NCBI GenBank assembly: GCA_021292105.1
Contig: CM037857.1
Location: forward strand, 31,300,365 to 31,364,364
Direction of reading: 5' to 3'
Length of the DNA: 64,000 bases
Source of the DNA: Anadara kagoshimensis
Lineage: Eukaryota; Mollusca; Bivalvia; Arcoida; Arcidae
In this document: in pieces, positions 3,604 through 60,940 of the stretch
Layout of the letters: each line of letters starts with the position of its first letter
Position numbering within the stretch: position 1 is the stretch's first letter
Notes under the pieces: model-generated
Seen by the model: the letters and a program-made list of their open reading frames with translations, nothing else
The model's database searches: none
What the model was told of the DNA's origin: nothing
Translations under genes and position numbers: made by a program

Positions 3604-3651
3604 GGTCCCAGTTTCACAATAATTTCTTAACTAAGATTTTCTTTAACTTAA
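3604..3651. repeat. MITE-B left end, split by the TTAA element
   Basis: It begins GGTCCCAGTTTCACAAT and runs to the TTAA at 3648-3651, where the 2.3 kb element is inserted. The MITE continues at 5984 with ATATGGCGAAATTTC, matching the internal order of other MITE-B copies (TTAAATCTGGCAAAATTTC). Confidence 0.7.
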
Positions 3652-4243
3652 AGGTCACCGGTCACCAAAAACCGATTTTTTTTTAGTACTATTTTCCGAA
3701 AGATTACATCATAAAAAGTCGATTTAGCCACAAATAACATTTTTTAATCATTTCTTTCCTTTTCTACAGCGTAAATTGAAGTCCTGAAACTGTTGAAAAA
3801 CTGTGTTATCTCCCTTTGGTTGTAAAAGGGCACAAAACCGGAAGTGACGCAGAAGGTGTTATCCCAACTATTTAGTAAATGAAGCTTGCATTTATTTCCC
3901 AGATTTATCGGACATAACTTCTATTGTTTTTATATATTTATTTATTTTTTAGCATTGGGTATTTTAGTTTCCTTCAGTAGAAAAAAACAAATAAAAAATA
4001 AACATAATAATAAGAAATAAATAAAGAAAAAACTATATTTGTGTTTGCTCTAAGTATGATATACTATTTACTAATACTTTTACGAAACATAATTTCACAT
4101 TTCTTTAGAAATTTATTTATTTATTTATTTATTTATCACAACAAATAATAAAAGAACCCAAACTTCCGTTTTTTATTGAAAATATTGCTCATATTAATTT
4201 TCATTAATATTTAATATCATTTTAATCTTTACATATCTCTGAG

Positions 4244-4290
<47 letters not shown>

Positions 4291-5979
4291 TCACAACAAA
4301 TAATTAAAGAACTCAAATTTCCGTTTTTTATTTAACGTATTTATCACATTAATTTTCATTAATATTAATTATCATTTTAATCATCCTTACATATCTCTGA
4401 GTTATTTATTTATTTATTTATTTATTTATTTGTTTATTTATTTATTTCTATTTATCACAACAAATATTAAAAGAACTCAAATTTCCGTTTTTTATTTAAA
4501 ATATTGTTCACATTAATTGTTATTAATATTTCATATCATTTTATTTATCTTTACATATCTCTAATAATTGATTAATTAGTACAGCTATATGATGATCCCA
4601 AATTGATTTTAATTCGTATTTGTTTTAGAAAATTGTACCATTTTTAATTCCTTTTTAAATTAAAATCAAAGATTTATTATTATAATTATTATTTATATAC
4701 CCATGTAATGAATAAAAAACACGTTTTCGGATAGAATCTGGGTCCAAGACCTGTAGTTTTTAGTACAACGAAAATATCAAAATAAAGGTTTAAAGAATAA
4801 TTTCTTATTTTCTCTCAAATAAAATGTTTCACCCCAGTATTACTTAAATATGAAAACAATTTCAATTCAATAGCTTCCTATTCCTTATTTGCAGTAAGTT
4901 TAATAATAATAATAATCATCATCATCATCATCATCGTCATTAATGTTTCCATGATAAAATAAAAAAATAAATTCATATAATAACTTTATTACGCTTAATT
5001 TTAATGGGATGAAAAGAACGTCATAAAAATGTGATACCAGTGGGATTACGCTCGACTAACTAAGAACTCAAAACTCGAGTGAAACTGTCTTTCATTTATT
5101 CACAATAAATTAATATCGTTCAAAGTGTGATTTACACCCCCTCACATACCAGTAATTAAGAGATTATCAATATGCTACATTGGGAAACATCCTGTATAGA
5201 AGTAGACACCTACCACCTGTAATTAACAGAGTTTACCTTACAATATGCAACATTAATTGACACGTGTGTATATCTTTATGATATACCCGGTAAATGTTAT
5301 TTGTCATTTTTATGGATTCTGAAAATCGAATAAATCAAAGTTAAATTAGATTAGTTAATCTGAACAAGGCATACGTCTCTGTTTGAACGTGTGAATTGGT
5401 GAACTGATTGAATAACGGAATTAAATTAATTTTGAAAATTAAAATTGTATTTGACTGAATTCGTTCATAATAATTTGAATTGTCTTAAATGATTATACCA
5501 CTCATATTTCCCTGACTTATCTCGTAGTGTTTAATCTGAATACATTCAAAACAATTAAAAAGCTGCATGTACAGCTGTGTAAATCTGGCTTTAATTTGTT
5601 CTGAATTTTGTGAAAAAAACATGTTCATCCGTCATTGTGATTTTATTATATTCAAACTTCACAAAATATATCATTTTGACTTGAAATCAAACTTTAAAAG
5701 CCTTCAAAACACCACACAAACCCACATGTTATATATGGATACATATAGAGGTTATATGTCTTTCCTCAGCAGCTTAACACCATGTACGTCATCAATTAGG
5801 TCGCCGGAAAGTTACGAGCGGTGTCGGAAACTACCGAGTATTAGCAGTTCGTTCAGGTAAGGTTTTAGTGTATTACAGGTAAATGTAAGGCGTGGGAAAC
5901 CGTCAGACACATCAATATTGACTATTCTACCCATTAGAATGCAAAATACAAAATTGATAAATTTGGTGACCGGTGACCT
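3652..5979. mobile_element. 2.3 kb TIR element with TTAA target site, copy 1
   Basis: The element begins AGGTCACCGGTCACCAAA and ends with the inverted TTTGGTGACCGGTGACCT. TTAA flanks both sides (3648-3651 and 5980-5983). The interior matches the second copy at 53389-55644 in order along its length. It holds a (TTTA)n-rich block of three units of about 155-162 bp. The only long frame (97 codons at 5567) is not preserved in copy 2, so no transposase is evident and the element is presumably non-autonomous. A TTAA target site is known for piggyBac and Kolobok superfamilies; the AGG terminus fits Kolobok better than the CCC-type piggyBac end. The superfamily call is inference. Confidence 0.85.
4110..4562. 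repeat. Tandem units of about 155-162 bp inside TTAA element copy 1
   Basis: The string TCACAACAAATA recurs at about 4136, 4291 and 4453. Each is followed by AAAGAAC, a short AT-rich block, ACATATCTCTGAG and a (TTTA)n run, so the unit is a composite of unique sequence plus microsatellite. Confidence 0.85.
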
Positions 5980-5983
5980 TTAA

Positions 5984-7800: not shown

Positions 7801-7938
7801 GGACACAGGACATTCGTTCAGACATACCTAGTTGGAAATCAGAAAAAGTGAGGACTTACTTTAGAAAGATTTAAGTGAAATTATCCATTGAAAGGATTTT
7901 ATTATAACTATTATTACCATTATTATTATATTATAAAA

Positions 7939-8320
7939 ATGTTGCTTGATTGTGATCAGCCAAAGAAAAAGAAGATGGCGTTTTCGGTGGAGAATTTAGC
8001 AAAGAGTAGCAGGATTGATTCCGAGAACGGACCACAAACTCCGGATATTCATAAGCAATTGTATCACAATGTGAACATTCCTTATCCCAGCATTCAGGAT
8101 AATTTTAGCCCATGCGGTCGACTTATGCATTCACCAGTCACAGCATCTAGTCCCGGGGGAAGCTCTACACAGGGCGGAGACGATAGCTTCTCTAATCTAA
8201 TGATTACCCCTTCATCAGAGGAAAGAAAACTTAAGAGAAAGAGATGTGATTCAGAAGAGACTATACCAAGTGGTCGAATGAGTGCCGACAGCCTCGAATC
8301 TGTCAGTCCATACGCATCGG
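7939..8320 (+). CDS. Homeobox gene exon 1
   Basis: 127 codons plus one base, ending TCGG before the donor GTAAGA. It encodes the KKKK basic run, the eh1-like FSVENLAK and a Ser/Pro-rich linker. Confidence 0.85.
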
Positions 8321-9048
8321 GTAAGAATTTTATTTTATTATTTCTAGCATATATCATGTAGAATGTTTTGTGCAATGCAATACTACAGTTTACTAAACTG
8401 GCGTGATTTCTTTTCTTTTAATATAAAAACCGGGCATTTTAAATTCCAGAAACCGGACTGTGAATTTATACATTTATTTTAAAATTTCAAAATGTCACTG
8501 ATGCTATAAGTGGGCAAAAAGTTATTATATAGACTTATAAAATTTAAAATGCCAATATTTAACATTAAAACATTAAATATTGAAACGTTTATTCAACAAT
8601 ACATAGGCCGAACAACGTGCCTTAATGATGGTAAGTTACTTTTTGATAATGCTTCCATCACGAAAGTTGTGGCTTATTAAAACGCACTGAAAAACTTTCT
8701 ACTTCACTTACAGCTGGTGAAATCTCGATATAAGTGATATATAAACCCCAGTCAATCAATCCATCAATTCTGCTTATCAAAAAAGCAGTTTTTCAGTGGT
8801 ATGCATGTGTATACTATAGTAGTTTAATGTAACTTATTATAATACCTCGCGTTTGTTTTATTTTCAGACTCTGAAGGTAACAGCAGTGGCGACACGGCAA
8901 GGAGAAAGAAAGCAAGAACAGCCTTCTCGACAGAACAAGTGAACGAACTTGAGTCTAGATATCAAACACAGAAATATTTACCTGCCTCTGAACGAAGCAA
9001 ATTGGCTGAACAACTCCAACTTTCTGATCAACAGGTGGGTGTTTATTT

Positions 9049-9106
<58 letters not shown>

Positions 9107-10309
9107 TAAAAAATTAATAATAGTAATAGAAATAAAATCGGGTTGAGAGATTTTATTGCGATATATAGAGACAAAGCATTGATTTATTATTTTTTAATGT
9201 CGCTGGTTATGAGAGTTGAGTATTGGTGTAAAACGCCTCAGCCAAGATTCTCTCACATATCGAGGCGGTTACGGCTCAGACAAGGATAGTGCCGGAGAAT
9301 GTAATGGGGGAGGGGGTTCCAAAGGAAAGTCTTGCCATTACGGTATTTTCACACAAAAAATACTTCGCAGAGATTTTCAGCATCTCTGCATTTTGCTTAC
9401 CCACCAAATTTACTTTTATTTCTCGAGGAAAGGTGTATGTTCTTGCTGAATCATGGTATTTATAGCACTCATCAGAAGTGTTAATTAACATAAAACCCAT
9501 CCTCCGGATACATAGCATAATTATTTAAAGTGCTACTCGTGACCAAGTTGTTGTCATGGGATTCAAGGGTCACGTGTTCCGAGTCCCAGAACGACTGAGT
9601 GGTATGTTAAATTTCTCCAGTCTAGTCCAGCTGCTTAATGGACTGTTTTGCAACTGTATTATGATAGGGGTTGCCATTGCCGTGGATGGATTCCTTCATC
9701 AAATGCGACGTACTTCACGCTCCGTCGCCTTACGTCACCGAAACAAGGGATAAGCAACAGTATGACGCGCCTATATGCTTGCGATAAACTTTAACTTAAC
9801 TAAATAAAGGACATTTTATGACCATTGGTCAATTATTTATAATCTTCTATCTTTCAAATGAGCGTGTCACTATCTATGCTATGCAGTGTTGTAACAATTT
9901 GTTGTCGCTTTGCGAAAAAAATCAACGTTTAATTTAATTGACCTTTTTATTTTTTTAGGTGAAAACATGGTTTCAGAATAGACGCATGAAGGAAAAACGT
10001 CAACAGAGAGATGAGGAACAGGCTAGATCATTCTCTCTTCCTACAGGGGGCGTTGATATTTCACAACTCGCAGCATTAGGAATTCCGTGTCCACCGCAAC
10101 CAATGAGACCGGCAGGTCAGATTCAAAAAGGAAATCATGCGGCAGTACCACAAGGATCTTTTTCTGGTTACTACGACCCTCGCTTACAACTTCCAACGTC
10201 ATTTCCGATGGGATTTCCTCCTATGTTTCCAGGCTATCACATGTATCCACCAGTGCCATCAATGATGCCTCACATGACGCTTTCACCGATGGGTAGACAA
10301 GCAAAGTGA
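7939..10309 (+). CDS. VENT-like homeobox transcription factor
   Basis: Three exons (7939-8320, 8868-9034, 9959-10309) join in phase to give 299 residues. The homeodomain spans about residues 140-199, with the invariant W48, F49, N51 and R53 (TWFQNRR) and with T47, Q50 and M54. Intron 2 falls exactly between homeodomain residues 44 and 45. The run ASERSKLAEQLQLS followed by QVKTWFQNRRMK and KRQ resembles chordate Vent/VENTX. BarH, Tlx and Hex also carry T47 but differ elsewhere. Near the N terminus FSVENLAKSS matches an eh1-like Groucho-binding motif and the FxSVxWLxxSS start of Vent proteins. The tail is Pro/Met-rich. It is expected to be a nuclear DNA-binding repressor. ATG 7939 was chosen for its A at -3; ATG 7975 has a stronger context and would give MAFSVENL. 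Homeobox identity is certain; the family is inferred. Confidence 0.9.
8868..9034 (+). CDS. Homeobox gene exon 2
   Basis: It follows the acceptor TTTTCAG and ends CAACAG before GTGGGT. It encodes an acidic, Gly/Ser stretch and homeodomain residues 1-44 (helices 1 and 2). Confidence 0.9.
9048..9104. repeat. (AAT)n microsatellite in homeobox intron 2
   Basis: Run of AAT units starting about 14 bp after the exon 2 donor. Confidence 0.95.
9535..9795 (+). mobile_element. Degenerate tRNA-derived SINE in homeobox intron 2
   Basis: The tail CGCCTTACGTCACCGAAACA..GGGATAAGC parallels the better-preserved SINE at 11625-11915 (CGCTTAACGCCACCGAAACC, GGGATAAGC), and both end before ACTTTAACT. The head is strongly mutated. 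Confidence 0.6.
9959..10309 (+). CDS. Homeobox gene exon 3
   Basis: It follows the acceptor TTTTTTTAG, encodes homeodomain residues 45-60 (recognition helix) and the Pro/Met-rich C terminus, and stops at TGA 10307-10309. Confidence 0.9.
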   Translation: MKTWFQNRRMKEKRQQRDEEQARSFSLPTGGVDISQLAALGIPCPPQPMRPAGQIQKGNHAAVPQGSFSGYYDPRLQLPTSFPMGFPPMFPGYHMYPPVPSMMPHMTLSPMGRQAK

Positions 10310-10772: not shown

Positions 10773-11043
10773 GCCCCGGTTTCACAATCATTCCTTAACT
10801 AAGATTTTTCTTAACTTAATTGTAGCAAATTTAAATTTTGACAATCTTTTTTGGAACTACGAATAATATTTTATGTCAAAACAGAATGCAGATGCATAAG
10901 CTGGATGTAATTTTTTAAATGAGACCTTAAATTCTCCAATATCTTAACAGTTAACAGAATTATAAAGGTTTTTTGGCTACAGTTAAGTTCTGAAGATCTC
11001 TGAAGAAAATCTGAGTTAAGAAACGATTGTGAAACTGGGACCA
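10773..11043. mobile_element. MITE-B, complete copy
   Basis: It starts CCCCGGTTTCACAATCATTC and ends with the inverted GAAACGATTGTGAAACTGGG, about 270 bp in all. No coding capacity. Confidence 0.75.
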
Positions 11044-17330: not shown

Positions 17331-20279
17331 TTAATAAACAATTAATTGAGATCTTAATTTCCAGGCATTGACTAGATATTTTGATAGTCTTATTAATAAT
17401 GTTTTGTTTCCGGACGATAATAAATTATACAGTTTTTGTAAAGTAGGCCAATGGTTGTAATACACTGGAAGATATTTAATTCTTAAGTGTCTATAGGCTG
17501 GACAAATCAAAATGAAATGGTATTCGTCTTCCGTGGCATTTAAGTTGCAGTGTGAACAAGTTCTTGATTGTCTTGGAATGTTTGAGTATCGTCCAGTCTC
17601 TACATTCAGCTTTAGATTTCCACATCTTATTTTAGATAGTATAAATAAATGTTCATTACATAAACACTGCAAATAGAATTCAAAGTTATAATTAGATTTA
17701 ATATTAACATAAACATTTAACTTATTTTTAGCTTTTATAGATTCAAACCACTGTTGTACATATTGGTCACGTAGTCTCTGTAATACCAATTCAATATTAA
17801 TACAATATGGGTTCTGATTATACCAATATTCAGAGAAACCTAAACCACAAATAAGATTTTTAACATTAAGTACCCAGTTTGCTTTCCCAACATTTGCGTC
17901 ATGTAATAACAAATTATATACAATATAAATTAAACTATTTGGATTTTGCAGTATTTTATACCAATATTTTATAATATTTTCTTTGCGTTTTATATGTAGT
18001 GGTATGCGTCCAAGTTCTCCCATCATAGCATCGATTGGTGAACTTTTACTCAAACCAAGTACATATCTGCAAAACTTATTTTGTATTAAATCAATATCAG
18101 GGGCTCTATGGAAGCCCCAAACCTGGGAACCATAAGATAATACTGGAAGACACATTGAATCGAAAAGATCACATTTCTGTTTTACCGTTAGTGGAATATC
18201 TCTGAAAATTTTAAATAATCCGTATAAGGAGACGGAGCTTTGGCTAGCTAGTCGCTTCTGTGTTAAGTTAAATTTTCCGTTAGAGTGTAAGAGAACACCT
18301 AGATATACGTAGGAGTTAACGACTTCAAGACACTCGTTTCCATATTTCCATAAATGTTTTGATTTGCTTCTTCCGTTTTGGAAGACAACTACTTTAGTTT
18401 TGTTAACGTTAACTTCAATGTTCCATTTTTTACAATATGTACGCAATGCATTTAATAAAAATTGCAAAGAGTCAGGAGATTTGGCAAAAATTACCGTGTC
18501 GTCTGCAAATAATAGAAGATTTATTAAATAACCACCTATATTTATCGTGTCTTTGTTACACTTTAGATCCGTTGCAATGTCATTTAGAAAGAATAAGAAC
18601 ATTAAAGGCGAAAGGGGTTCGCCCTGTTTCACACCAACGTAATTCTCGAAGAAATTGGAATACTGTCTATTTGAACGAATGCAGATATTGACTTTCTGAT
18701 ATATTGATTTGACTATTTTAATCATTCGGCTGCTACAACCACTCACTAATAATTTAAACCATAAAAAGCGTCTGTCAACACGGTCAAACGCCTTTTTAAA
18801 GTCGACGAATGCGCTAAATAGTTTTTCTTTGTTTGTGAGGGTGTGCGTAACCAATCCATGTAACACGTAAATAGCATCCACCGTTGATTTCCCTGTTCTA
18901 AATCCAAACTGAAGTTCCGTAAGAATATTGGAAGATTCCGCCCACGTTAAAAGTCTTTGATTCAGCAATGACGTGAAAATTTTCGAAAAAACACTTACTA
19001 AAGTTATTGGTCTGTAGTTGTTGGGGTCTGATAAATTATCTTTTTTGGGAATTGGTACTACTATTCCATACGTCCAATCCTCTGGAAACTCGCAAGTGTG
19101 GAAGATGTAGTTAAATAATTTGCATAAAATTGGTGCTAATGTTTCCGCAACAACTAAAAACATTTCTGGTATTAATTTGTCATAACCCGGGCTTTTGCCA
19201 CGTTTAAGTCCTTTAATAATTCTGATGATTTCCTCCTCAGTAAACTGGCAATCCAGATCATCAACGTAATTATCTGGTAATGGCTGGTCAATTAATGATC
19301 TTATATCACTATTAAGTTCGTTAGGAACTTCTCCGAACAACCCTTTGTAAAAGTCATAAAAATCATCTAAATCAACAGGACAGTGGTTTTTAACACTTTT
19401 CGGTTTCACAGATTTCCAAAATTTCTTTGGATCAGTTTTAGACATCGTCTGAAGTTCGACACTTTTCTGCTTTAAAAATTTAAATTTGGAGTTTCGCTTT
19501 ATTTTATTATAGATATTACGTTCCCGCGTGAATTTCTGTCTATTCTCGTCACTTGGATTTCTTCGGAATTGATTTCTCATCATTATGAAACGTTGCCTTT
19601 GTTGATAACATTTAGAATCGAACCACTCATTCTGTTTGTGTTTGGGTCTCTTTGGTGAATTGCATACTTTTCCGTTCACTGCAAAACTTGTTGAGTAAAT
19701 CATATCAGTAATGCTAGATACACAAGTATTAACGTTAACATCGCCACCTAAGTTATCAACGAGTGACATCATATTTGGAATCTGTTCTTTGATAGAGTTT
19801 ATATAAATATAGTCGTTATCCGTATTCCATTGTATCTTTTCGTGTGATCTTAACGATTCAATATTATCTGTTACCTTAGCTGAAAATGAAAAACATAGTG
19901 GTGCATGATCAGAAAATTCATTAAAGTGTGTGATATCAAAATAAGACAATGTCTTAAAATTCGTATCAAATGTTAATAAGTAGTCAATTAAACTACTACC
20001 ATTTGGACCACAGTATGTAAATTTACCTACTTTGTCATCAAATAAACGACCATTGACTATTTTCAAGCCACTTGATATACACATATTGATAATGTTTTTA
20101 CCAAAGTCATTGACTACCTTATCTGGAGATTGTCTTATAGGTACAACTTCATCTTCAACTTCTGGTACAGTGTCTATAAACCTGTTTAAATTATCATTAG
20201 CTACAAAATCATCTAATTGTCCAACTCTACCATTTAAATCACCTGTTATGAAAAAAACAACCCTTTTCTTCATATTCAC
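17331..20279 (-). CDS. LINE ORF2: endonuclease C-terminal part, reverse transcriptase, zinc knuckle
   Basis: A 982-codon frame. The first 130 residues are the C-terminal half of an APE-type endonuclease (GDLNGRVG, LIDYLLT, SDHAPL). A full RT follows, with GKSPGYDKLIPEMF, NYRPITLVSVFSKI, FVDFKKAFDRVD, GVKQGEPLSPLMF and the catalytic FADDTVIF at about residue 580. Near the C terminus CSHCNLNATEDEYHFILICP is a CCHC-like knuckle. The codon at 20279 is a GTG, not a true start: the real ORF begins upstream in another frame, separated by one frameshift near 20250-20265. Such proteins nick DNA and copy their own RNA by target-primed reverse transcription. The clade was not determined. Confidence 0.95.
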   Translation of the reverse strand: MNMKKRVVFFITGDLNGRVGQLDDFVANDNLNRFIDTVPEVEDEVVPIRQSPDKVVNDFGKNIINMCISSGLKIVNGRLFDDKVGKFTYCGPNGSSLIDYLLTFDTNFKTLSYFDITHFNEFSDHAPLCFSFSAKVTDNIESLRSHEKIQWNTDNDYIYINSIKEQIPNMMSLVDNLGGDVNVNTCVSSITDMIYSTSFAVNGKVCNSPKRPKHKQNEWFDSKCYQQRQRFIMMRNQFRRNPSDENRQKFTRERNIYNKIKRNSKFKFLKQKSVELQTMSKTDPKKFWKSVKPKSVKNHCPVDLDDFYDFYKGLFGEVPNELNSDIRSLIDQPLPDNYVDDLDCQFTEEEIIRIIKGLKRGKSPGYDKLIPEMFLVVAETLAPILCKLFNYIFHTCEFPEDWTYGIVVPIPKKDNLSDPNNYRPITLVSVFSKIFTSLLNQRLLTWAESSNILTELQFGFRTGKSTVDAIYVLHGLVTHTLTNKEKLFSAFVDFKKAFDRVDRRFLWFKLLVSGCSSRMIKIVKSIYQKVNICIRSNRQYSNFFENYVGVKQGEPLSPLMFLFFLNDIATDLKCNKDTINIGGYLINLLLFADDTVIFAKSPDSLQFLLNALRTYCKKWNIEVNVNKTKVVVFQNGRSKSKHLWKYGNECLEVVNSYVYLGVLLHSNGKFNLTQKRLASQSSVSLYGLFKIFRDIPLTVKQKCDLFDSMCLPVLSYGSQVWGFHRAPDIDLIQNKFCRYVLGLSKSSPIDAMMGELGRIPLHIKRKENIIKYWYKILQNPNSLIYIVYNLLLHDANVGKANWVLNVKNLICGLGFSEYWYNQNPYCINIELVLQRLRDQYVQQWFESIKAKNKLNVYVNIKSNYNFEFYLQCLCNEHLFILSKIRCGNLKLNVETGRYSNIPRQSRTCSHCNLNATEDEYHFILICPAYRHLRIKYLPVYYNHWPTLQKLYNLLSSGNKTLLIRLSKYLVNAWKLRSQLIVY

Positions 20280-20700
20280 TAGTAATGTCTGTTAATGTAT
20301 CAAAAAAGTTAAAATCAACACGCTTATAGTATTCAGATTTTGCGTGTGGAATGTAAACTAAACATATATACATATCATTATCAAAACCAAAAAATATCTT
20401 ATTAAGTTTTAACACAATAATACCACTTTCTATTTCTTTCTCAACCTTGATACCTTCAAATATATTATGTTTGCAAAAAACAGCAAGACCACCTTCATTT
20501 CTGCGACCAATGTTAATTTTTCGATTTAAAAAGGATACATTTTTGAAACCATCTATTTCTATCTTTTCATCTCTTTTCAACAAGGTTTCCTTGTATAATA
20601 GAATATAATAAAAGTTACACCTGCCACAGTATATTAATACATAATAGATAATTCGACATGATTTCTGTACCTTTGTTCTGCATAATAACCAGTAAAACCA
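20239..20700 (-). pseudogene. LINE ORF2 N-terminal endonuclease part (frameshifted, 5'-incomplete)
   Basis: The frame reads ETLLKRDEKIEIDGF (usually ETWLK in these endonucleases), then GGLAVFCKH and VYIPHAKSEYY, before running out of frame at about 20250 where the downstream frame takes over at VFFITGDLN. A slip in the plus-strand run AAAAAAACAACCC accounts for it. The frame stays open upstream to about 20700, but the first endonuclease motifs are not recognisable, so the copy is 5'-truncated or decayed. Confidence 0.8.
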
Positions 20701-24727: not shown

Positions 24728-25058
24728 GTCACGGTTTCACAATCATTCCTTAAGCAAGATTTTCCTTCAAATTTGAAATCTTAACAATTTTGCGAATTGT
24801 TAAGATATTTAGGTTTTTAAGGCTAAGATTTTCCTTAACTTAAATCTGGCAAAAAAATTTAATAATTTTGTTAATTTGTAGGATGTTCTGGAATTCATGG
24901 TGTAATTTTGCAGATCACTTCAAGCATATTACATTAATATTTAGTTTTGTCAAAAAATAAAGTTTGTTATTACTACTAAAACCGATTGCTAAAATTTTCT
25001 AAAGTTAAGTTAAAAAAATATAAGTCAAGGAACGCTTTTGAAACTGTCCCAGAGCCTG
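24728..25058. mobile_element. MITE-B copy, with internal duplication
   Basis: It begins TCACGGTTTCACAATCATTC and ends CTTTTGAAACTGTCCCAG. The AAGATTTTCCTT subterminal block occurs twice, at about 24767 and 24825. Confidence 0.6.
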
Positions 25059-29138: not shown

Positions 29139-32100
29139 CTGAAAATATGAAACAAAATAGGTTGGTTAAAAGTAGGTCAAAGTTCAATGTCATTCATATA
29201 CTCTAAAAGGGTCATAGTCATCCATATACTGTGGATATAGTTCCATTCTGAAAATATCAAACAAAAATAAAATAGGTTGGTTAAAAGTAGGTCAAAGGTC
29301 AATGTCATCCAACATACTCTGACCGAGTATAGCCCCATCCTGAAAACATCAAACAAGATAGGTTTTTTAAAAGTTGGTCAAAGGTCATTCTCATCCACAC
29401 ACTCTGGATCTACTACCATTTTGAAAATACCAAACAATATAGATTTTTTAAAAGTAGGTCAAAGGTCAATATCATTTGATCATGCCAACGAATAAACTAT
29501 TTTGGGTCATTTATTGCGATATAATAATGTCTAAATGGGCATGTCATAGGATCAAGATCGAACCTCAAAAACCTTTAAACACCCATTGAAATGAGTTGAA
29601 CCCAATTTGTGACCCTTTCCTAGGATCAAGAGCGAGCCTCAAAACCCTTTAAACATCCATTGAAATGAGTTGAAATCAATTTGTGGCCCTTTCCTAGGAT
29701 CAAGAGCGAGCCTCAAAAACCTTTAAACACCCATTGAAATGAGTTGAACCCAATTTGTGACCCTTTCGTAGGATCAAGAGCGAGCCTCAAAAACCTTTAA
29801 ACATTCATTGAAATGAGTTGAAACCAATTTGCGTCCCTTTCCAATGTTTCAGGAACATCGGCATTCTGAAGATACTTAAGGTGACTTATGTATCAAGAAG
29901 TCAGACCCATATTTGAAATGTTTCAGTTTATTTAAACAGCATTTTCGGATACCTCCGACATCGTGTATAGTGACACGTATTCAAAACACTTCAAACAAAA
30001 TAGACCAATAGACCAATGTCTTAAAAACAACTTGTTTATTTCAAGATTAGTCATGATTTTGTCTTCGTCATCCTGTAAACTGTGCTTAAACCTTGCAAAT
30101 TACCTTCGTTGAATGGAATTTTCTTACTCCGACATAATAAGTCAAGGGGAATGATATGAGTTGAATTGAGTAATGGTGTTTAAGGTCCCATTGAAAAATA
30201 TTTCACTTATATCGAGACGTCGCAAGCTATAGACGAAGGTGAAGAAAGTTTGCCTATGCGTTGTGCTGATGACATTGTTCAGCAGGGGTTGTTTTACCGT
30301 GCCACGCTACCGTGACACAAATTCCTCGTTTATTCTAAGCTCCCAACAGTGACTTTCATTTCGTGATGCCGAGTGATTGGCGAAAAAACAATCACTACCC
30401 ACTTTCAAGTCTTGGGTCAGACTCGGTCGGGGTCGGACCCACGACCTCCAACTAACGGAGCGAGCAGCCTAACAACTGAACTCAGTGACCGCAGTGGTGT
30501 GTTGTGATTTGAAACCTAACATTGTTTAGATTTTAGGACCACTGAGTTTTTTATCCCATCTTGTGCATTACATTCCAAGACAAAAAACAATTCATAGGTA
30601 GAATTAAACAGAAAAATAATGACCCCCAGTCAGCGTCACAGGTACTTGGGGAATGACTCCCAATTTCACAATCATTCTTTAAATAAGTTTTTTCCTTAAC
30701 TAATTATGACAATTCTTAAATCTAAATAATTTGTTAAATTATCTACCTTCTAATTTTGTCGAAACTTTAAACTTTGAAATGCCATAAAATATTGCCAAAA
30801 GTTGCCAAATTTGAGTTGAGAAAAAGTATTAGTTAAGAAATGATTTTGAAACGGGGGCCAGGAGTGAATTTTTCTTAATGTTCCAACCTTTACATTATGA
30901 TAATATAAATAATCTGCTAGAATTAAAAACCGTGATTAGAGTAACATAGGGTGCAGTTTCTTTTTCCAGGCCTCGGTTTCACAATTATTCTTAGCTAAGA
31001 TTTTTCTTTACTTAAATCTGGCAAAATTTCAAATCTTTATTTTTAATTTGTTAATGTTTTATATATTCAGGAAGTTAAGTTGTCATTTTCAAGCTCACTT
31101 CAAGCTTAAAAAATTGTGTTTTGTTTTGTAAAAAGTTCGACGCCGGTAACTTAAAGATATACAGTCGGGAGATGATGATGTTATTTATACCATTTTTGAC
31201 TTTAATCATGCATAAAATACATTCAAACATGGTATATGACATTTAACATAAAAAAAATCTTGGTAATCTTGATAAAGATGGATTCATTTACACAGCAGAA
31301 CAAACGCCACCATCGGATATACCCCCGTGGTTGCAGTATATGACATGCGTCAATTAGACATTGTTTATCTGTTTTTGTTTTTACACATTTTCTGTGTTTG
31401 TTGCCGCTATCGAAGCGCTGATGACGTCATCGCAGTGTTGTGATGTTGTTTTTGATTTTTATTCTCCAAAATAGAAAAATATATTTTGTTAAAGGCAAAC
31501 GACATTGACCTGTCCGCTAGACAATTCATTAAGAATATACGTATTACAGGGTCCATCCAGTTCAGTTAGGATTCGAAGTTGATACATCAACACTGCAGGT
31601 GACCCATATACATACAACATTGACTGTCTGATTGACCTTTTATTAGGAATATTCACGGTTATGGGTTTGTAGTTAATATAAAATCTACGCACGTTTTCAT
31701 GTTGTGGTCAATATAAACACCTGTGTCACCTATACATATAGGTAAACAACATTGACCTGTCCGTTTGACCTTTAATTAGGAATATTCATATAGAAGAGTC
31801 CACCTTATACATAAGTAGTAGTAGAAGTCGCAGTTAATAATGTATACACAAGATAAGTGATTAGTGTTCTCATTATGTATCCAAAATACAGCCGTGTGAT
31901 TCCTATATATAAATGCAATCTTCCTAGATAAATATTTAAATTGAAGGTCAAACGAACAGGTCAATGTTGTTTATCTATAAATATGCTGGCCCGAGATAAA
32001 TATTTAAATTAAAGGTCAATCGGACAGGTCAATATTGTTTGCCTACACTAGTTTATAATAAACATTTAAATTCGTTGTTTGTCTCAGTAAGTAACCTCCG

Positions 32101-49600: not shown

Positions 49601-52600
49601 CTCATTTACCGGGGTAAGGAAAATAAAACCAAGTAGCTTTTGATATAACTTCTAATCTAGAGTCGGTCCTAGCCTTGAACTCATTACTCTGAGGATCATT
49701 CGAGAGTACGCCAGAAACTGTAAGGACCAGGCAGAACAGCCAGCCAATAACCAGTGCTACTAGTATCTGCAATTAAAGGGAGACTACTGCATAAAAAGTG
49801 CAATCGTAAAGCCAAAAACATTTTACGTAAAGATCGGCTTCAAATTGAAAACGCCCTTTTCTTGTTAATCCATTAAAATAAAATGGTGTAACATAAAAAA
49901 ATATGTTTATAATGATACGAGTTCCTTGCAAGCGTACATGTTATTTATATCAAGTGCTTGACTTTACTTCGAGTAACCACTACTTCTTGAAGAAGCTAAG
50001 AGTTATTTCTTGTTGAAATGGAAACGACTTTCTATTGGAAAATAAAAAAAGGTTAACGTTTCATCAATTTTCTAGAGAGCATGAGCACACAAACTGAGAT
50101 AAAAAATTCTACTACAACCAGTAAACAAATTTAAGGTTTGTGTGATAAGTGACATTGCTGTCAGCAAGTACTAAAGTAACAATGCGGATCAGAAATGTTG
50201 TTATTCAAATTATCAAAAACTGAATGCGTGGTCGTATAATACAATCACCTATTGCATAACGTTTTCGGGATATAGAACAGGACATAAACCGCCCGATTCT
50301 GGGAAGCCGATGATACTTTCGCCCAGTCGAGATTTTTCCCTTATACTTAGGCGACCAGACCCTGGTTTCACAACCATTCATAAACTAAAATTTTCTTTGA
50401 CTTAAATATGGCAACTTTTGGCAATAATTTATGGTATTACAAATGTAAAAAATATATTGAAGTATCATATGTTATAAGCTTGACATATGACATCTTAAAT
50501 TCATGAATATCTTGAAATTAACAAAATCATTCAGATTTCAAATATGCCAGATTTAAGTTAAGGGAAATCTTACTCAAGAAACGATTGTGAAACAGGGGCC
50601 AGTTCGGGAGAAAACTATCACCTTCAGCAAGTGAACAGACAAACTATCTGGCACTTAAAGCTGCCTGAAGGGGTATTTGGATCTAGTTCTAGTTCGTGAT
50701 AGGCGCTTTGCTCTGTAACCGCAGTTGTTGACCGCTTTGACACCTAGATCCATTAGATGACAATAATGACGCCAACGAAAAGCTACATTTGAAACTTGAT
50801 GACAAACGTGACGACTTTCCTTTATTATGCAGCAATACACGTGCTTATCTTGCTTATGGTGTATTCGTTTCCCAATTAAAACGCTATGGTAAAGCTTGTT
50901 CCCACTACGGGGACTTCGTTTAAGGAAGCAGACTGCTTGCAAATAAATTGTTGACCCAGGGATCAACATAATTACCTTGGATATATCTGACGCCCCATAG
51001 TTCCATGTTCCTCTCACACAATTTTGATTACACACGTGGCGGATGTAGCTAGCTAAAGAGGAGGTGCTTACACTTCTGGAGCACCCGGCCTCACTTCCCT
51101 GGTGGAGGTACACGAGTCTAATTCAACTTGTCATTCCGAAGTTTTTACTTCTGAATTGTGATTCGAATATGGATTTGTTGTTTGTATTTGATTTTCGTTC
51201 CTATTGTTGTCCAGAGTGGCTCGCGTATATTTGTAGGTTGTTTGGTATTATCACATGGCAAGTTTCCAATCGTATTTTGGAACTTACACAAGAACAGTTA
51301 AATATTAAACGAAGTTGATATATACCGCAAAAACTTGATGTAATGGATACCGAATTATGTGAAAGCTTTTCTTTCTGGTCCAAACTGGAATTGGCATTTT
51401 AACATTGGCTAAATACAGAGAAAGGATAATAGCTATACCAGCAGTCCTAAAGAAAAAAAAGAATAAAATGCATTCAATCCTTTAATATATACAAAAATGT
51501 TCATTAATACAATATATTATTACATACGTGGTGGGTATAGCAAGATAAACAGGAGATGCTTACCCTTCCGGAGCACCCGGCTTAACTTCCCTGATTGAAT
51601 TTTACGTGTCTAACCTGACTTGTCACTTCCAAAGTTTTTACTTTGCTTTTGGATTGTGATTCGGCCATAGATTAGTATGATTGTTTGTTTTTGATTATGT
51701 TTCTTTAAACAGATTCCTCCTAAACACACTATTAGATACCATTATGCGCTTCCATACCTCAAACTATTGGATGTAATTTTCCTAGTTTAAACTATTTTAT
51801 GCCATTCTATCCTTCTTACAACCACACTTTGTCAATTTGTTCTTCTAGAAACCACTTTTGTCCTTGTAGTGTGTAGTTTGATTAAGCATGGGTCATGATG
51901 TTTGTTTTTCGTAATCCTTTCGTTTGTTTTATCGTATTTTGGTTATTGTTATGTATGCTTTTTCAGCTTTAAATCTAAATAAGTCTTAGTTGTGAGATTT
52001 GGTGATAAACTCAATTGGGATGAAACGTTTGTTTGAAACGTGAAATAATTTGAATGACATTAGAAAAAGAAAAATTTAAAAGATTTTCTTATTTAGCTGT
52101 TGCCCCGAGGATATCACAATGATATTATTATCAGAAATATACTGTCTAAATTTGCTGCCAGTTATATACGATTTGAATGTTCTCAAAACTAAGGTATACC
52201 CCCTCATGCAAAGTATTTTCTTAGCTAAATTTGGTAAAATATATTTTGGTCCTTTGAGTATCTTTTCAGCATCTTGAAAACAATTATTTTGGTTTCATAA
52301 TTTTGGTCCAAGCACTACGTAATAAGTGTATTCCGAAACGGTCGTCTAGTGCTGTAAAATTAAAAGAGGTATAATATGTAAATTACCACTTCTGTTTGGA
52401 GAGTCTGTAATGCCGCATGTACTCTCCTGAGACTGAGTGAGTAGCAGAACGGGATTTGGAACTTTGCCGAGTTAGACAAAGAGTGACATTAAAGTAAAGA
52501 TTTTAAACCCGTTTCTGGATGTCATGATAAAGAACCGCAACTGGTGTTAATTGTTCCATGAATTTCTAGAATACCCTTATTATTTAAGGTGACGGTGACA

Positions 52601-53861
52601 TCTCTATACAATGTATTAACAATTTCTCCTGAGCAGAAACACTTCCAACATCCTTTTAAACCATGTACCAGCGTTATACTTACATGAGAGATATTCCCCA
52701 ATGGTACTGTGCAAAACCAGTTACAGACTTCACCAAGAATATTCCAACCAGTAGTATAGTAGGTACTATTGTGATTGGACCAATGAATCGCAGTAACACT
52801 CCGACTAGTCCCGTGGCACCAATAATAAAATGTATAGCCCCAGCTGCCATTAAACTGCCTTGTAACTGTAAATAAAACCAAAAACAAACATACTTATCCT
52901 TATTCGAATTATAATCAAGAAGAAAAATAAAAACTTTGAAAAGTACAACTTAACAAAGGTTAAACACGTAGACTTCCATCAGGCCGGGTGCTTCAGAATG
53001 GTAAGCACCTGCTGTTTAGCTAGCTACACCCGTAAGTGAATTTCACAGACTCAATTTATTTAATAATAGTACATGTACAGTCTGTAGTAGGACACTTTTA
53101 GGCAGGTTTTTCGTTATAGGTATGGGAAAGGATAAAGAGAAATAATTTCCTGAAAATGATTGTCAGACACAATGTAAGTAAAGGAAAATAATGATTCTTC
53201 AAAACAAGTTTAACGAGTATTAGTTTGTCTTAAAGTCTTATATAAATTTAAATAGACCCATATAATATTATTGTAGCTGTATACAAAAACGTTTTATGAC
53301 TGTCATCACAGTAGTGTTTAAAAGTTTCATATCTCTGTGTCCAGGGTTGCCCTGGGTATATTTGAACTATGATAAATATTTAACTTAAAGGTCACCGGTC
53401 ACCAAAAACCGAATTTTTTTAGTACTATTTTCCGAAAGATTACATCATAAAAAGTCGATTTAGCCACAAATAACATTTTTTAATCATTTCTGTCCTTTTC
53501 TACAGCGTAAATTAAAGTCCTGAAACTGTGGAAAAACTGTGTTATCTCCCTTTGGCAGTAAAAGGGCACAAAACCGGAAGTGACGCAGAAGGTGTTATCC
53601 CATCTATTTAGTAAATGAAGCTTGTATAGTGAACTGCGTGTTTTACTCAGATTTATCGGAAATAACTTCTAGTGTTTTTATATATTTATCTATTTTTAAG
53701 CATCTGGCATTTCAGTTTCCTTCAGCAGAAAAAAATAAATAAAAATAATCATAATAATAAGAAATAAATAAAGAAAAAAAACTATATTTGTGTTTGCTCT
53801 AAGTATGATATACTATTTACTAATACTTTTACAAAACATAATTTTACATTTCTTTTGAAAT

Positions 53862-53912
<51 letters not shown>

Positions 53913-54042
53913 TTTTATTTATTTATATCTATTTATCACAACAAATAATAAAAGAACCCAAATTTCCGTTTTTATTTAAAATATTGTTCATATTAATTTT
54001 CATTAATATTTAATATCATTTCAATCTTTACATATCTCTGAG

Positions 54043-54081
<39 letters not shown>

Positions 54082-54410
54082 TCACAACAAATAATAAAAG
54101 AACCCAAATTTCCGTTTTTATTTAAAATATTGTTCACATTAACTTTTATTAATATTTGATATCATTTTAATTATCTTTACATATCTTTGATTAATTAATT
54201 AATTAATTAATTAATTAAGTTATTTCTTTATTTATTTATTTACTTTTTCTATTTATCATAAGGAATAATAAAAAGAACCCAATTTTTTTTTTTTTTTTTT
54301 AAATCTTTTCATTCTCTAGTACAGCTATATTATGACCTCAAATTGATTTTAATTTATATTTGTTCTAGAAATTGTCCCATTTTTAATTCCTTTTTAGATT
54401 AAAATCAAAG

Positions 54411-54453
<43 letters not shown>

Positions 54454-56133
54454 TACCAATGTAATGAATAAAAAAACACGTTTTTGGGTAGAATCTGGGT
54501 CCAAGACCTATCAAAATAAAAGTTTAAAAAATAATTTCTTATTGTCTCTCAAATAAAATATTTCACACCAGTATTACTTAGATATGAAAACAATTTCAAT
54601 TCAATAGCTTCCTAGTTCTTATTTGCAGTAAGTTTAATAATAATAATAATTTTAATGGGATGAAAAGAACGTCATCAAAATGTGATACCCGACTAACTAA
54701 GAACTCTAAACTCGAGTGAAACTTTCTTTCATTTATTCACAATAAATTAATATCGTTCAAAGTGTGATTTACACTCCCTCACATACAAGTAATTAAGAGA
54801 TTATCAATATGCTACATTGGGAAACATCCTGTTTAGAAGTTTATGAAGTAGATATCTACCACCTGTAATTAACAGAGTTTACCTTACAATATGCAACGTT
54901 AATTGAGACGTGCGTATATCTTTATGATATACCCGGTAAATGTTATTTGTCATTTTTGATGGATTCTGAAAATCGAATAAATTAAAGTTAAATTAGATTA
55001 GTTAATTTGAACAAGGCATACGTTTCTGTTTGAACGTGTGAATTAGTGAACTTATGAATAACGGAATTAAATTAATTTTGAAAATTAAAATTGTTTAAAA
55101 TCTATATATTTGACTGAATTCATTCATAATAATTTGAATTGTCTTCAATGATTTTACCACTCTTATTTCCTTGACTTATCTCGTAATGTTTAATCTGAAT
55201 ACATTCAAAACAATTAAAAAGCTGCATGAAAGACTTGTGTAAATCTGGCTTTAATTTGTTCTGAATTTTGTGCAAAAAACATGTTCATCGGTCATTGTGA
55301 GTTTATTATATCCAAACTTTACAAAATATATCACTTTGACTTGAAATTTAAACTTTAAAAGTCTTCAAAACACCACATAAACCCACATGTAATATATGGA
55401 TACATATATAGGTAATGTGTCTTTCCTCAGCAGCTTAACACCATGTACGTACGTCATCGATTAGGTCGCCGGAAAGTTACGAGCGGTGTCGGAAACTACC
55501 GAGTATTAGCAGTTCGTTTAGGTAAGGTTTTAGTGTATTACAGGTAAATGTAAGGCGTGGGAAATCGTCAGGCTCATCAATATTGACTATTCTACCCATA
55601 GCAATGCAAAATACAAAATTGATAAATTTGGTGACCGGTGACCTTTAAAGGTCAAACGAAAAGGTTATTGTTGTTTGCATATACAAGCTTTACAAACAAT
55701 AAAACCTTCAAGTGGTAAACTTTGCATGTCAGAACTTTACTTACCGATGCAATGTATCTGAATATTATTTCTTCGTGGTTAACTTCAGTAATGTTACTAC
55801 TAATACCTGTGTCATTAACGTCCGTGATGTTCCCAACTAAAACACATAACATTTTTTATTTCACGACACGTTCCTATCATGTAATACACGTTCAAATATT
55901 TTCAGACATATACTATTTCATGGACAACATCACTGGATAAAACATTAAGTTTCTTGATTATAAAATTCTCAACTTAGACGACCACAGGGGCAAACGCCCT
56001 GTGAAATGATTAAATTACTAGTGAAGTACTTCAACCACCAACCGAGCTATTTTATAGTATGATATGAAATATCCTATTGTACAACAAAGAACAACATGTC
56101 ACAAAGTCATCTAATAGTGTGAATTAATTATAC

Positions 56134-59699: not shown

Positions 59700-60940
59700 A
59701 AATCACAATCTCATAGCAAACTAGTATATGTTGCTCTTCTCGATTTACATCAACGACATTGTTCAAGACATAAATTGTTATATACGTCTTTTTGCTGATG
59801 ATACCTCTTTATATCTTCAAGTTGAAAACCCTGTCGAAACAGCAAATACTTTGAATGAAGATTTAGAAAGAATTCTGAGTTGGTCTAAAAATGGCTTGTC
59901 TCTTTTAATCCTAATAAAACAAAATCAATGGTGTTTTCAAGGAAGTTTGTTAAACTTTCACATCCAACTTTATTTATGGATAATATAGCTATAACACAAG
60001 TTTCTTCTCATAAGCATCTTGTTATAATTTTTTCTGGTGACGGATTCTGGTAAGATCATCTTGACTATATTATCTCCAAAGCTCGATCTCGTTTATATCT
60101 TCTACGCAAATTCAAGTTTAAGATAGACAGAAACTCTTTGCAGAAGCTTTACTTCTCTCTGGTCAGAACCCATACTCGAATATACAGATGTTGTTTGGGA
60201 CAATGTTTCTATTCATTATAAAAATACATTAGAGCAAATCAATCTTGAAGCTGCTAGAATAGTTACAGGATCCACTCAATTAACTAGTACATCTCTTTTA
60301 CTTAAAGAAACAGGCTGGGGCACTCTAGAAGAAAGGCGCAAGAAACATAAGTTAACCCTCTTCTACAAAATGTTTTATCGGATGACACCAGACTACCTGA
60401 GTGATCTTGTTCCTCTTCTAAACGCTGATATGCACTCTTACAATACCCGTCATCAAGATGACTTGTTATCAATCTCTTGTAATAGTGAATCTTACTTTAA
60501 GTCCTTTCTTCCATCGGTTGTTCGAGAATGGAATAACATACCACTTATAATCAGACATTCCTCTCTCAGTAGTTTCCGAAATTACCTTAATCAAAATCTT
60601 GAAAAAGTCCCCGAGTATTTCTTAGTAGGAGACCGCCTTGGACAGATACACCATGCAAGATTGCGAATGAAATGTAGCTCTTTAAAACAACACTTATACA
60701 AAAAAAACGTTGTTGATAACCCTAACTGCCTTTGTGGTAAAGTAGAATCAACTCTACGCTATTTTTTTGAATGCCCACTTTACACAATTATCAGAAACAA
60801 TTATATTAATTCTATACCTTACCATGTTACATGTCAAATTTCACTTTATGGTAGTCAAGATTTCACTTTACAACAAAATATTGAATTGTTTAAGAGAGTA
60901 CAGTCTTACATTATACGTTCTAAACGATTTACCTAATATT
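59700..60940 (+). mobile_element. 5'-truncated LINE fragment (RT C-terminal half)
   Basis: It starts in the RT catalytic block (CYIRLFADDTSLYLQV), then FNPNKTKSMVFSRK in a shifted frame, a stop near 60050, a second shift, PILEYTDVVWDN, AARIVTGSTQL and an intact 188-codon frame (60370-60936) with SYNTRH and PNCLCGKVESTLRYFFECP, a zinc-knuckle-like end. At least two frameshifts and one stop make it dead. The type differs from the 17.3-20.6 kb LINE; a CR1/jockey-like clade is possible. Confidence 0.85.

Follow-up and report, generated by a model that had tools for sequence, protein, structure and literature searches.

TTAA-specific non-autonomous elements with Kolobok-type termini in the genome of the bivalve Anadara kagoshimensis

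The stretch analysed here, called the window below, comprises 64,000 nucleotides of Anadara kagoshimensis contig CM037857.1 (positions 31,300,365 to 31,364,364 of the forward strand). An earlier note, made from the letters of this stretch, had described an element at 3652-5979 with terminal inverted repeats (TIRs) and TTAA on both sides, nested in a miniature repeat (MITE-B). We found the 18-bp sequence AGGTCACCGGTCACCAAA exactly at both ends of this element (copy 1), flanked by TTAA, and the inverted repeat extends over 22 of 22 bp when both TTAAs are counted. A second copy in the window carries AGGTCACCGGTCACCAAA exactly at 53389-53406 (+) and 55627-55644 (-). By chance, a mean of 0.03 matches per shuffled window is reached (100 dinucleotide shuffles, up to three mismatches). 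A repeat search within copy 1 revealed no direct repeat joining its two ends. The features of the two copies and of the repeat that hosts copy 1 are as follows.

3652..5979, + strand: non-autonomous TTAA-specific element, copy 1 (2,328 bp)
3652..3669, + strand: left TIR AGGTCACCGGTCACCAAA (18 bp), with two tandem GGTCACC heptamers inside
5962..5979, - strand: right TIR, equal to the left repeat (18 bp, exact)
3648..3651, no strand: left TTAA target-site duplication of copy 1
5980..5983, no strand: right TTAA target-site duplication of copy 1
4111..4562, + strand: internal tandem array, ~155-bp unit with a TTTA microsatellite, 2.8 copies
5751..5825, + strand: right subterminal block of low divergence, a possible cis-acting sequence
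53389..55644, + strand: copy 2 (2,256 bp), TTAA at 53385-53388 and 55645-55648
30965..31038, + strand: uninterrupted host-repeat (MITE-B) relative, an empty site for copy 1 (85%, single TTAA)
50533..50600, - strand: second uninterrupted host-repeat relative (83%, single TTAA)

Downstream of copy 1, at a distance of about 2 kb, the window also holds homeobox gene pieces (VKTWFQNRRMKEKRQQRDEEQ; 7879-8361 and about 9960-10110, +) that are Vent-like by eye, and long open frames that look to be of non-LTR retrotransposon type lie at 17331-20291 (-) and 60127-60936 (+). An ETS-like sequence, ACCGGAAGTGACG, occurs close to the left end of copy 1 (3837-3849) and a splice-donor-like sequence, CAGGTAAG, close to its right end (5854-5861). 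A candidate subterminal motif, CGGAAANTNAC, was rejected because 14 and 18 of 200 shuffles reached its observed count. Viral contigs contained no match to TTAAAGGTCACCGGTCACC. A literature search for GGTCACCGGTCACC returned no paper with the full sequence; an 11-base piece of it occurs in eight papers, none with a title concerning this element.

Searching the genome (1.115 Gb, 36 contigs) for the 18-bp end revealed 1,745 exact matches (880 + 865), of which 1,666 (839 + 827; 95.5%) are directly preceded by TTAA, a tetranucleotide that begins at 1.17% of window positions. The reversed control pattern had no exact match, and with two mismatches tolerated there were 2,173 ends versus 74 control matches. 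Left ends listed at 100 of 120 places include at least one on every contig from C1 to C17. Contig C1 carries 95 exact ends (three without TTAA), grouped into 43 pairs and 9 singles; 41 of the pairs are spaced between 1,946 and 3,179 bp and the other two 5,203 and 5,904 bp, with a median of 2,470 bp across all 43. We assembled a sample of 22 elements from 20 C1 regions picked for exact ends (both long pairs included) and the two window copies. All 22 have TTAA on either side and begin with AG and end with CT, and their interiors are AT-rich (GC 23-30%). The family of copy 1 is present in several hundred copies in this genome.

For an empty-site test, we joined the flanks of the 22 copies with one TTAA and compared them with the window and the fetched loci. 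A relative spanning the junction was found for six of the 22. Two of these, L011 and L012, diverge by 0.2% and appear to derive from a single insertion by duplication, leaving five independent cases. The cleanest is L017, whose joined flanks match an uninterrupted repeat in L009 at 96% over 300 bp with a single TTAA. For copy 1, four uninterrupted relatives cross the junction, each with one TTAA: the two listed above, a third in the window at 10775-10848 (82%) and one in L014 (84%); laxer settings added a weaker relative at 30658-30723 (78%) that lacks a full TTAA. The earlier note had reported the uninterrupted MITE-B sequence TTAACTTAAATCTGGC elsewhere in the window, which is exact at 24835-24850 and 50546-50561 (-), whereas the place it gave near 31013 agrees with one mismatch (31007-31022). 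Weaker cases are L014, where one of the four relatives shown has ATGA; L009, whose sole relative lies within its own locus and has TAAA; and copy 2, with three relatives at laxer settings, one with TTGA. The joined flanks of L011 and L012 align to the right end of the element group itself, so both sit inside an older member. The pre-insertion evidence proposed for copy 1 therefore holds and extends to other independent copies; TTAA-specific insertion with TTAA duplication is confirmed by the genome-wide counts and the empty sites. As a further observation, the family copy in L009 (C1:33.002-33.007 Mb) harbours, within a TTA run, a nested element built from tandem ~145-bp units, and the L017 copy is inserted in the same ~145-bp-unit repeat.

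Decay of the ends and target sites suggests that the family inserted and spread recently. Comparing the numbers of exact and near-exact ends gives a change of 1.0-1.2% per site for the terminal repeat; from the target sites that have lost TTAA, the figure is 1.2% per site. These values are divergences rather than ages, and the fetched copies, picked for exact ends, may favour young ones. In the 20 copies below 4 kb in length, the element bodies differ more, with a mean pairwise divergence of 7.1% (left) and 9.5% (right), reaching up to 19%; that between nearest neighbours averages 1.7% (left) and 2.9% (right). The simplest reading is several diverged source lineages with recent spread.

An older related element in L010-L012 (C1:38.94, 38.98 and 39.02 Mb) has right-type ends at both termini, forming a long inverted repeat; its three occurrences, ~34 and ~38 kb apart, apparently arose by local duplication. 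The terminal 25 bp of the family are 99% identical to those of this relative, whereas the remaining 26 bins of 25 bp show identities of 71-96% (22 bins) or 29-53% (four bins), gaps counted as differences; a need for the ends to be recognised would produce such a contrast. Within the family, the 75-bp block at 5751-5825 diverges by 1.3-1.7% over 19 copies, compared with 5-9% in most neighbouring bins and ~20% further in; in the older relative the same region is 85-93% identical and does not stand out. Judging from this pattern of divergence, the block may act in cis.

One subfamily carries an additional segment of ~590 bp, whole or partial in five of the 22 copies (L013, at 2403-2994, L015, L016, L022 and L025) and absent from copy 1. 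Its reverse strand encodes a ~41-residue piece weakly similar to RidA (PF01042; E 0.0018-0.0085 in four of the five fragments, below the cut-off), for which PDB sequences and NCBIfam gave no match. The segment occurs at no fewer than 150 genomic places. A PF01042 search of the genome matched one place, C4:2,500,963, covering profile positions 9-51, and the piece in the element covers positions 47/48-93, directly after it. The segment is possibly a captured host exon.

Duplication of TTAA is common to piggyBac and Kolobok elements, and Sola3 probably also targets TTAA; among inserters at this site, those outside piggyBac have received less study. Kolobok termini are described as 5'-RR/YY-3' (PMC9587614), and Xenopus Kolobok elements as having AG ends, the T2-MITE motif AGGRR and a TTAA target (PMC6004289). 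The AG...CT termini of all 22 sampled elements follow the RR/YY rule, and the 4-bp TTAA duplication is that of Kolobok. It is equally that of piggyBac, whose terminal hallmark is given as CC[C/T]T (PMC2872659), whereas the ends here are AGGT/ACCT. The suggestion in the earlier note that the element is not piggyBac and perhaps Kolobok thus agrees with the terminus rules in these three sources. The full-length relative with a transposase that it proposed to seek did not turn up among the ends and loci examined, so the superfamily call draws on termini and target only; by these features, weak markers of a superfamily, the family fits Kolobok.

T2-MITE and Xmix, non-autonomous Kolobok elements of Xenopus (PMC6004289), share the TTAA target, an AGG-type terminus and the non-autonomous MITE type, and Xmix is described there as carrying an inner segment expanded into tandem repeats (Xstir), comparable to the array in copy 1; they differ in their terminus (AGGRR versus AGGTCACCGGTCACC), in size, the element here being ~2.5 kb, and presumably in host phylum. 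Non-autonomous KolobokP families, reported to be rich in bivalves, have RR/YY termini, TIRs of up to 18 bp and lengths of 1.7-3.3 kb as here, but they possess long terminal direct repeats, and their solo repeats are reported with 3-5 bp duplications rather than TTAA (PMC9587614). Membership in KolobokP was rejected, as copy 1 lacks such direct repeats of ~450 or ~660 bp. Within the same genome, an autonomous Kolobok-type locus, L071, is like the element in being bounded by TTAA and an RR terminal repeat, but this repeat, GGCCAAGTGGTACA, is unrelated in sequence to AGGTCACCGGTCACC, which is also missing from the KolobokE-like loci L031 and L043 and the KolobokD-like locus L045. The piggyBac-like coral CMITEs (PMC2872659) share the TTAA duplication, a TIR of 13-14 bp and alleles with and without insertion, and differ in their CC[C/T]T ends and length of about 100 bp.

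No recognisable transposase is encoded in any of the 22 elements, as the earlier note had stated for copy 1. Their longest open frame has 129 codons, and frames of at least 100 codons occur in four. Open frames of at least 80 codons were gathered from all 22, and none of the eight scanned against Pfam reached the cut-off (weak RidA, PF01042, in two, E 0.0074-0.0075; weaker GP70 in one, E 0.098). We next consider transposases elsewhere in the genome. A search with the PF20700 profile gave 115 matches; among 10 of these proteins scanned, two contain YqaJ and one an RNase_T exonuclease. KolobokE and KolobokD are reported with accessory proteins of these two types (PMC9587614), and by this partnership we infer that PF20700 marks Kolobok transposases. 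The TIR was absent from 30 PF20700 loci (~1.5 kb on each side), apart from one chance-like match with five mismatches in L031, and four wider PF20700 loci had no TIR match within five mismatches. PF20478 (KolX-like) gave nine weak genomic matches, whose loci also lack the TIR. No transposase joined to AGGTCACCGGTCACC was present at the loci examined, and blastn gave no match between 43 loci (L029-L071) and copy 1, queried as its left, middle and right parts. PF20700 arrays were observed at C1:27.300-27.318 Mb and C5:48.827-48.915 Mb, with spacings of ~3.6 kb and ~6.3 kb and, on C5, several open frames of 640-641 codons; their arrangement recalls KolobokP multimers.

Neither long C1 pair contains a partner: L009 holds the nested ~145-bp-unit repeat and L010 a nest of older copies. 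The nested piece in L010-L012, which resembles a LINE tail by eye, has frames of 93 and 99 codons with no Pfam match; one tried at NCBIfam gave none, and the best PDB match had E 0.48. Distances to transposases were taken from 230 known ends, 95 of them on C1 and together a minority of all ends, initially against 66 and 104 transposase places and then against 115 PF20700 and 126 piggyBac matches. None of these 230 ends lies within 157 kb of a PF20700 match. For THAP, 137 matches were compared with 238 end entries (eight C1 ends doubled); two lie within 7 kb where 0.41 pairs are expected (3.2 kb on C6 and 6.3 kb on C12), both left of and outside the element. Searches for the 15-bp end with other bases after it returned nine places (control, one) and 30 places (control, two). 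By eye, most are mutated family copies (17 of the 30 in the second set were seen with letters); C5:37459045 does not fit the family, nor possibly do C9:37705133, C9:16677073 and C18:51592079. The 15-bp end thus occurs almost only alongside the family's own two subterminal sequences, and the partner is accordingly either concealed within the set of copies or bears other ends. Since the ends listed are a minority, a long autonomous copy may be among the rest.

We consider it probable that the family consists of non-autonomous cut-and-paste DNA transposons moved in trans, most likely by a Kolobok transposase. Such an enzyme would recognise the 18-bp ends, excise the element and insert it at a TTAA tetranucleotide, which would then be duplicated. 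Movement by another or undescribed TTAA-specific transposase, such as Sola3 or a new group, is an unlikely alternative that draws on the absence of the TIR from every Kolobok locus examined and on the confinement of the 15-bp end to its own subterminal sequences, as a hidden or differently ended partner would produce; the termini nevertheless follow the Kolobok RR/YY rule, and no feature is unusual for Kolobok. We regard a piggyBac derivative as somewhat less probable still. The duplication of TTAA, a TIR in the 12-19 bp length class (PMC2872659) and 126 transposase matches in the genome would suit it, but its CC[C/T]T hallmark, as given in that source, is replaced by AGGT, and all of the 230 known ends, a minority of the total, are 54 kb or more away from those matches.

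A spread of the ends by segmental duplication, expansion as a satellite or an assembly artefact, instead of by transposition, is hardly credible: L010-L012, at their ~34 and ~38 kb spacing, do look locally duplicated, but the listed left ends (100 of 120 places) are distributed over every contig from C1 to C17, the empty sites show precise insertion and the reversed control had no exact match. A more elaborate joint reading, in which an undescribed TTAA transposase or a Kolobok lineage with an unlike TIR would move the family, the right block would be an additional recognition site and a captured RidA-like host exon would have been spread by one subfamily to at least 150 places, is about as improbable as the piggyBac derivative.

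Under the preferred reading, mobilisation in trans by a Kolobok transposase, the element looks like a passenger of known Kolobok transposons, and its family is new but of a familiar type. Its value lies in being an apparently young TTAA-specific element, on the scale of several hundred copies and with precise empty sites, in a mollusc genome. If the partner transposase were identified, the family, with its clean ends and its young copies, would offer a system for testing DNA recognition of the Kolobok type.
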